Source: a virus. From it: a stretch of 40,732 nt of DNA. Made by a program: the position numbers and the translations under genes. This document shows positions 17,453-18,599 of this stretch, piece by piece; position 1 is the stretch's first letter; the number at the start of each line of letters is the position of its first letter. The notes under the pieces were generated by a model that did not search any database, was not told the DNA's origin, and saw nothing but the letters and a program-made list of their open reading frames with translations. The stretch covers positions 1-40,732 of IMG/VR virus record IMGVR_UViG_3300025424_000003; one strand, 5' to 3'.

Positions 17453-17484
17453 TGCAAATCGTTGCCGTCGTAAGCAATAGATTG

Positions 17485-17806
17485 AAAGCCGTTTACACAT
17501 GCATTCTGCTTTATCCAATATTCGTAGGAATATATTGGATAGAGTTACGACCAGGGTGCAGTTGTAAGCGGCTTTTTTCATTTCTGATGACGATGACCGT
17601 ACTCCACACGATAGTAAGACTTAATCCTGAGGGCGTGGAAGAAAAGGGTACACGGTATGCGTAAGCTAGGGGGCAGTTCCCGAACAATCCGTGCGGCTGG
17701 GCGAGTCATCAGGCCGAGGGGCATACGGTATTCAATCCGTAGCATGATGATCCTGTTTATCAGGGGTGAAGCACCTACTCCTTTCTACTCCATGTCTATG
17801 GGGTAG
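17485..17806 (+). ncRNA. candidate structured non-coding RNA upstream of dcm
   Basis: A GC-richer stretch of stem-loops. (1) 17485-17575: 13-bp outer stem AAAGCCGTTTACA / TGTAAGCGGCTTT with one G-U pair; inside it TGCATTCTG / CAGGGTGCA (17500-17508 / 17552-17560) and TATCCAATAT / ATATTGGATA (17512-17521 / 17532-17541); T6 follows. (2) TCCAC / GTGGA (17603-17607 / 17635-17639), inside GTAC / GTAC. (3) CGGCTG / CAGGCCG (17694-17699 / 17710-17716). (4) TACGG / CCGTA (17724-17728 / 17737-17741). (5) CCTG / CAGG (17752-17755 / 17761-17764). (6) GGTG / CACC (17765-17768 / 17772-17775). (7) CTACTCCAT / ATGGGGTAG (17785-17793 / 17798-17806). Two weak frames cross it (17452-17664, 70 aa, starting TAATG; 17657-17806, 49 aa) and cannot be excluded. 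Element 1 alone could be a terminator. I do not recognise the fold. Confidence 0.45.
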
Positions 17807-17870
17807 GGGGGACTTTGGGTGAAAAGGACGCGACAAGTATTATCAATGTTTAAATGCAAAGTGGGGGTGT

Positions 17871-18599
17871 ATGAATGAGTTGGCTTTATTCGCAGGCGCT
17901 GGTGGAGGAATACTTGGGGGACATTTGCTCGGATGGAGAACCGTCTGTGCAGTCGAATGGGAATCTTACCCAGCTAGCGTATTGTGCGCCAGACAAAATG
18001 ACAGATTTCTCCCGCCTTTCCCAATATGGGATGACATTCAAACCTTTGACGGAAGACCTTGGAGAGGAATTGTTGACGTTGTATCTGGGGGTTTTCCATG
18101 TCAAGATTTGTCAGCAGCGGGTGGAAGAGCTGGACTTGATGGATCAAGATCAGGTTTGTGGAAAGAAATGGCAAGGGTGGTTAGCGAAGTACGACCCAGA
18201 TACGTCTTCGTGGAAAACAGCCCAATGCTCGTTAATAACGGACTCGGACGAGTGCTTGGAGATTTATCCGACCTCGGGTTTGATGCGAGATGGACTGTTA
18301 TGGGAGCAAACGAGGTTGGTGGGCAGCACAACAGAGACAGAATTTGGATTGTTGCCCACGCCAACAGCAAGGGACTTCAATGGACACACGATAACCAAAA
18401 AAAGACCAAAAGGGTTCAACAAAGTGTTACCAAACGTTTTCAAGCTGGAATTCCAATTACAAGGTCAATGTTATCCACATCCTACTTTCAGCGAAGGGCT
18501 GATGCTATGGCCTGTTGGATGGACAGACTTAAAGCCATTGGCAATGGACAAGTCCCAATTTGTGCAGCAACTGCGTGGAGAATCCTAAATGAACTATGA
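17871..18599 (+). CDS. DNA cytosine-5 methyltransferase (Dcm-like)
   Basis: A 242-residue C5 methyltransferase. Motif I LALFAGAGGGILGG binds AdoMet; GGFPCQDLSAAG has the catalytic Cys77; VENSPML (motif VI) contains Glu115; QHNRDRIWIVAHA is motif VIII; RLKAIGNGQVPICAATAW is the IX/X end. It is short: only about 45 residues lie between motifs VIII and IX, where the target-recognition domain usually sits, so specificity may be unusual. No restriction partner is present, so it may protect phage DNA from host restriction. The SD-like GGGGG at 17863-17867 is only 3 bases from this ATG but 7 from the ATG of the overlapping frame. Confidence 0.87.
   Translation: MNELALFAGAGGGILGGHLLGWRTVCAVEWESYPASVLCARQNDRFLPPFPIWDDIQTFDGRPWRGIVDVVSGGFPCQDLSAAGGRAGLDGSRSGLWKEMARVVSEVRPRYVFVENSPMLVNNGLGRVLGDLSDLGFDARWTVMGANEVGGQHNRDRIWIVAHANSKGLQWTHDNQKKTKRVQQSVTKRFQAGIPITRSMLSTSYFQRRADAMACWMDRLKAIGNGQVPICAATAWRILNEL
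17875..18588 (+). CDS. overlapping second frame of dcm, possible dual-coding protein
   Basis: A 237-residue open frame in +1 register covering almost the whole methyltransferase gene. It starts MSWLYSQALVEEYLGDICSD, contains TSSWKTAQCSL, LLPTPTARDF and ends MLWPVGWTDLKPLAMDKSQ. Its ATG has a better-spaced ribosome site than that of dcm, and its stop directly precedes the next ATG (18589). From memory, proteins with this start (MSW-(Y/F)S-ALVE), with PTP-A-D motifs and a WP-GWTDL end are widely annotated in phages of proteobacteria beside or in place of Dcm. Conservation of this frame could be a by-product of conserved methyltransferase motifs, so translation is unproven. Confidence 0.5.
   Translation: MSWLYSQALVEEYLGDICSDGEPSVQSNGNLTQLAYCAPDKMTDFSRLSQYGMTFKPLTEDLGEELLTLYLGVFHVKICQQRVEELDLMDQDQVCGKKWQGWLAKYDPDTSSWKTAQCSLITDSDECLEIYPTSGLMRDGLLWEQTRLVGSTTETEFGLLPTPTARDFNGHTITKKRPKGFNKVLPNVFKLEFQLQGQCYPHPTFSEGLMLWPVGWTDLKPLAMDKSQFVQQLRGES

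Follow-up and report, generated by a model that had tools for sequence, protein, structure and literature searches.

Two overlapping reading frames of a phage gene very probably encode a two-subunit C5-cytosine DNA methyltransferase

Two long reading frames occupy the same DNA strand in a virus record of 40,732 bases (IMGVR_UViG_3300025424_000003), the whole of which is called the window here. The locus raises the question of whether the second frame is a passive companion of the methyltransferase gene or encodes a protein of its own, and what that protein may do. The initial annotation had named both possibilities. The two frames and their starts are as follows:

17871..18599, + strand: alpha (frame 0), predicted catalytic polypeptide of a C5-cytosine methyltransferase, 242 aa, from the ATG at 17871 to the stop at 18599, with motifs I-VIII and X (PF00145 and profile matches)
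17875..18588, + strand: beta (+1 frame), second polypeptide, 237 aa, from the ATG at 17875 to the stop at 18588, with a conserved N-terminus, a variable stretch containing LPTPTARD, and motif IX
17871..17877, + strand: overlapping starts ATGAATG, holding the alpha ATG (17871) and the beta ATG (17875)

Both frames were confirmed at the full length first described. The third frame is full of stops, and its longest open run is 36 codons. A TGA in the beta frame stands immediately 5′ of the beta ATG, and the next ATG (18589) begins directly where beta ends, as had been noticed. The approximately 420 bases between a replication-initiation-like gene and alpha (17453-17870) hold no convincing gene.

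The chance of such an overlap was estimated with the alpha protein held fixed. The +1 frame stayed open in 3 of 100,000 synonymous codon permutations and in 1 of 100,000 codon resamplings based on the codon usage of the window, and 6-8 stops were expected in it under synonymous shuffling. Simulated evolution under the constraint of alpha alone produced 2-10 stops in the +1 frame at the observed divergences. The simulated probability of an open +1 frame was approximately 0.08 or less, the value of 0.08 belonging to the closest relatives with the weakest constraint, and was near 0 for most relatives. The initial annotation had thought two aligned frames of this length unlikely by chance, and a chance origin of the double open frame is excluded.

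Relatives were gathered with beta, with an alpha alignment searched against viral contigs and against bacterial genomes, and from annotated phages. Some contigs recurred between searches, and duplicates were removed for later counts. Beta was found in the +1 frame of alpha in all 329 loci examined, including 160 fetched via alpha alone. Among the loci with motif IX in the +1 frame (duplicates removed), 254 of 255 were free of +1 stops from motif IV to motif IX; a further three loci are poly-G variants. Where the variable region differs in length, both frames stay open. A broken second frame beside an intact methyltransferase gene had been proposed as the thing to look for, and the alpha-only searches of relatives returned no intact alpha with a missing beta. 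Against bacterial genome contigs, the alpha protein alone gave no matches and the alpha alignment gave 80 loci. The double use of this DNA occurs in hundreds of related phages and prophages, and the overlap reaches beyond the family of the window.

The phage family that the initial annotation suggested for the second frame does exist. The beta frame is a called gene in Pseudomonas phage VB_PaD_phPA-G (XAI65183), Vibrio phage 1.236.O (AUR97051), and SOVA965 (WWO60469). Beta is annotated instead of alpha in public records (L086, L477, and L478) as "DNA-cytosine methyltransferase" or "hypothetical protein"; L086 is Stenotrophomonas phage SOVA965, with the beta-frame call at 1884-2384. Since such records annotate beta and not alpha, either half may be absent from annotation.

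Alpha has the features of a catalytic chain. Pfam PF00145 (DNA_methylase) matches its residues 4-186 (E = 4.8e-32), and PHROG 363 "DNA methyltransferase" matches with E = 3.9e-59. The motifs that define a C5-cytosine methyltransferase, namely I, IV (PCQ), VI (ENV-like), VIII, and X, are all present, and Cys77, E115-N116, G224-N225, and Q227-V228 are invariant in the alpha alignment. The blocks located by this alignment are:

18087..18104, + strand: alpha motif IV, GGFPCQ, with the invariant catalytic Cys77
18213..18224, + strand: alpha motif VI, ENSP
18330..18356, + strand: alpha motif VIII region, NRDRIWIVA, the last frame-0 block before the handover to the +1 frame
18534..18557, + strand: alpha motif X, AIGNGQVP, overlapped by the C-terminal tail of beta (position 3/position 1 change ratio 2.09)

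The best profile matches of alpha, M.HhaI and M.HaeIII, cover motifs I-VIII only. These enzymes are alike to alpha over that part and hold the target-recognition domain (TRD), motif IX, and motif X in one chain and one frame. Neither motif IX nor a TRD was found in the alpha frame; the profile match for motif IX is in the +1 frame, and at the place of motifs IX and X frame 0 of the window family reads MDRLKAIGNGQVP, which is motif X without motif IX.

Selection was measured in 19 independent pairs, with changes sorted by their effect in both frames. The controls were neighbouring genes of the same phages, taken as non-overlapping longest ORFs. Among alpha-changing substitutions, the ratio of beta-changing to beta-silent changes (pNN/pNS) was 0.46 (95% CI 0.35-0.57), against 0.78 (0.70-0.85) in controls. 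Among alpha-silent substitutions, the corresponding ratio (pSN/pSS) was 0.39 (0.33-0.48) against 0.62 (0.53-0.74). The ratio of position 3 to position 1 changes was 1.22, compared with 2.97 in control genes. The same test found no comparable constraint in the +2 frame (pNN/pNS 1.29). The N-terminal part of beta (codons 1-165) is constrained at 0.58 (0.48-0.66), and the C-terminal part is more constrained at 0.39 (0.27-0.53). Purifying selection thus acts on both frames, beyond what ordinary genes of the same phages show; this was the check that the initial annotation had suggested.

The position 3/position 1 ratio of alpha changes along the gene. It was 1.4-5.2 over codons 1-154, which hold motifs I-VIII, and fell below 1 from about codon 155. 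It returned to 2.09 over codons 221-242 (motif X), where frame 0 is dominant again. The stretch between them is:

18333..18530, + strand: beta (+1) is the main coding frame, over alpha codons 155-220, with ratios of 0.68, 0.55, and 0.62 in three successive windows of codons

This pattern shows that the main coding frame runs from 0 to +1 and back to 0. Within the +1-dominant stretch lie a variable region with LPTPTARD and a conserved block that ends in WTDL; they are read as target recognition and motif IX.

These data bear on the second option of the initial annotation, in which the +1 frame is open only since the conserved methyltransferase motifs fix the codons. Frame 0 is indeed dominant over codons 1-154, and the RPRYVFVEN region of alpha accounts for phrases of beta such as YDPDTSSWKT. 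Because frame 0 dominates over motifs I-VIII, some of the beta N-terminal similarity among distant relatives is a by-product of alpha constraint, and a partial shadow effect exists. As an account of the whole frame this explanation is extremely unlikely. The +1 frame is broken by synonymous shuffling with alpha held fixed and by simulation under alpha constraint, alpha varies freely over codons 155-220 where the +1 frame is constrained, and the +1 constraint exceeds that of control genes. Unless the controls are invalid, these tests already refute it.

The conserved block of beta lies at the end of the +1-dominant stretch:

18478..18531, + strand: beta motif IX, HPTFSEGLMLWPVGWTDL, with invariant columns P203, E207, M210, W216, T217, and L219

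It resembles the frame-0 sequence NPxFVEYMMGLPxGWVTD that lies just 5′ of motif X in relatives. A profile of the beta C-terminus matched the frame-0 motif IX of Baddon gp4 (E = 2.3e-7, in a small search space). The C-terminal block of beta is taken to be motif IX because Baddon-like relatives carry the same block in frame 0 directly before motif X. The C-terminal third of beta is most likely a target-recognition region plus motif IX, and the TRD probably belongs to beta, as its position, variability, and frame dominance suggest. PHROG 1008 "DNA methyltransferase" matches beta (E = 7.6e-17). Pfam and NCBIfam families gave no match to beta, and a PDB profile search gave nothing credible (best E 0.089). 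AlphaFold2 models from 44-row alignments reached a pLDDT of 51 for alpha and 45 for beta, too poor to support a complex. The family likeness that the initial annotation saw in PTPTARD and the WPVGWTDL end is real; it had missed that the second frame holds motif IX and the variable region. Motif IX in the +1 frame was also seen in remoter methyltransferases (L081, Mycobacterium phage Zerg gp69; L082, Synechococcus phage S-H1; and L342-L348). The +1 beta of Zerg and S-H1 is shorter, has no MSWLYS N-terminus, and apparently begins inside alpha.

An inhibitor had been offered as one example of a second product, and overlapping phage genes are often unrelated. Beta could then be an inhibitor, a regulator, or an unrelated phage protein that overlaps the methyltransferase by happenstance. 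This is very unlikely, since beta has the motif IX that is absent from alpha, relatives have motif IX in the alpha chain at the same place, and beta is present with every alpha examined. The inhibitor reading was rejected on the ground of motif IX. The motif IX that alpha lacks, together with the variable region, most likely makes beta a subunit of the methyltransferase, the partner role that had been the other example.

A second arrangement of the two frames was found in the Baddon-like group. In Gordonia phage Baddon gp4 and its relatives, motif IX is in frame 0 and is directly followed by motif X, LKMLGNGVVPQQ. The position 3/position 1 ratio in this group is 0.63 between motifs VIII and IX, with 2.51 and 2.74 in the flanks, and 41 of 55 genes have an open +1 frame. 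The Baddon-like group is a second dual-coding arrangement, with motif IX in frame 0. The patterns of the two groups indicate that the specificity region is in the +1 frame in both, and that motif IX can be in either frame. In loci of the Baddon type (L397-L476, L333, and L334), motifs I-VIII, IX, and X are in frame 0, and the +1 frame over VIII-IX has repeated LLPTPT motifs. Magnar and Baddon had been considered as ordinary single-chain controls with a broken +1 frame, and were rejected as such on the 41 of 55 open frames and the handover over VIII-IX.

A third pattern concerns a clade of 48 viral contigs (L349-L396), which have a poly-G tract of 10-17 G at the VIII/TRD junction, approximately 495 bases into alpha. 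Tract length decides to which start, alpha or beta, TRD-IX and motif X are joined. All three possible reading registers are common in the contigs that cover this part in full: 10 have alpha with motif X and beta with motif IX, 11 have alpha fused to motif IX, and 12 have beta fused to motif X. The tract looks like a contingency tract that switches the arrangement, and may point to phase variation of a phage methyltransferase. Assembly error or PCR slippage is a possible source of the length variation. A poly-G tract at this junction was also seen in L010, L024, L026, L039, L041, and L042.

The start region of beta was compared in 233 distinct loci. The beta ATG is kept in 222 of them, and alpha codon 2 is AAT in 220, even though the rest of alpha uses AAC more often for Asn. 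In 42 loci none of ATG, GTG, and TTG stands at alpha codon 1, which indicates that alpha starts elsewhere there and that the beta start has not moved. The ribosome-site spacing that the initial annotation cited in favour of beta is weak in the window, where only GTGGGGGTGT stands upstream. The Shine-Dalgarno-like match seen most often in the relatives is separated from alpha codon 1 by 4 bases and hence from the beta ATG by 8, and 93 of the 233 have no clear match.

The main rival explanation is ribosomal frameshifting from alpha, into +1 behind motif VIII and back again ahead of motif X, which would give a single canonical chain with a minor role for the beta start. In its favour, the motifs follow the canonical order on the DNA, the handovers fall at VIII/TRD and IX/X, certain tract lengths in the poly-G clade join I-VIII straight to TRD-IX, and the junction of the window and close relatives has seven consecutive A (18397-18403). 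Frameshifting would not need the conserved beta ATG or the constrained N-terminal half of beta, and the many loci without an alpha start at codon 1 retain the beta ATG. Two shifts in opposite directions would be required, the A run is found in only some of the closest relatives of the window, and M.EcoHK31I functions as two polypeptides. Frameshifting is disfavoured by the conserved start and the constrained N-terminus of beta, and we regard it as unlikely. The A run, a possible slippery site in the handover region, is kept in L001, L002, L004, and L005, and the same search did not find it in L006-L008.

We consider it very probable that the gene is dual-coding and specifies a C5-cytosine DNA methyltransferase of two subunits. 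A methyltransferase partner made by true dual coding was among the proposals of the initial annotation, and the 329 of 329 loci, the two-frame selection, and motif IX in beta support it. Frame 0 would encode alpha, which would bind AdoMet and contains the catalytic Cys and motifs I-VIII and X. Beta, probably translated separately in the +1 frame from its own ATG 4 bases downstream, would supply the small domain, with motif IX and target recognition. The motifs stand in canonical order on the DNA (I-VIII, TRD, IX, X), with TRD-IX written in the other frame. Alpha and beta would assemble as a single enzyme that methylates cytosine in a specific site of the phage DNA. A PHROG scan of eight neighbouring genes gave a replication initiation-like protein, RusA, a Sak-like annealing protein, and unknowns, and recognised no endonuclease partner. 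Because of the phage setting, the replication and recombination neighbours, and the lack of a recognised endonuclease, we speculate that protection of the phage against host restriction is the likeliest role of this methylation.

Split C5-methyltransferases are known. In M.EcoHK31I, the larger subunit has motifs I-VIII and X and the smaller has motif IX (PMC3404938), and the enzyme has been used as a naturally split enzyme (PMC3439449). The likeness of M.EcoHK31I (YGGCCR) to the present pair, with a large chain of I-VIII and X and a small chain with motif IX, is one of motif layout. The small chain lies in another frame within the large gene here, and the smaller M.EcoHK31I chain is reportedly encoded in the same way (Lee et al. 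1995). The present beta differs in starting 4 bases after alpha and spanning nearly the whole gene (237 of 242 codons). The TRD is assigned here to beta, on the variable region under +1 selection, whereas a published prediction puts the M.EcoHK31I TRD in the larger chain, and no restriction enzyme was recognised beside the phage gene. M.AquI (CYCGRG) is also a C5-methyltransferase in which two chains form one enzyme (PMC3404938). It splits inside the variable region and keeps motifs IX and X together in the small chain, whereas in the phage pair each of these motifs is on a separate chain and the genes overlap over nearly their whole length. PHROG 1008 (beta) and PHROG 363 (alpha) are separate families, and the scan output does not connect them as frames of a single gene. 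A literature search on overlapping phage methyltransferase genes found nothing relevant. The precedent of M.EcoHK31I means that the split arrangement is already known in kind; unusual here are the scale, the offset of 4 bases from the alpha start to the beta start, and the poly-G clade with 10-17 G.

It is rare for overlapping genes of such length to have selection on both products, and such cases usually resist explanation. In this gene the motifs allow a function to be assigned to each frame, and the hundreds of homologues make it a model for how two frames share selection. More tentatively, and with slightly less than even confidence, we propose a large and largely unrecognised class of dual-coding C5-methyltransferases in phages and prophages, whose TRD is written in +1 and whose motif IX may be in one frame or the other; one clade would have a hypermutable poly-G phase-variable frame switch. 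If so, a poly-G switch of the motifs joined in one chain could change activity or specificity. On the two-subunit reading, many records named "DNA cytosine methyltransferase" would be half an enzyme, the annotated frame lacking motif IX and probably the specificity region, with the other half unannotated or called hypothetical. The annotated gene, recoded and expressed alone, would fail to reveal the methylation specificity of the phage.
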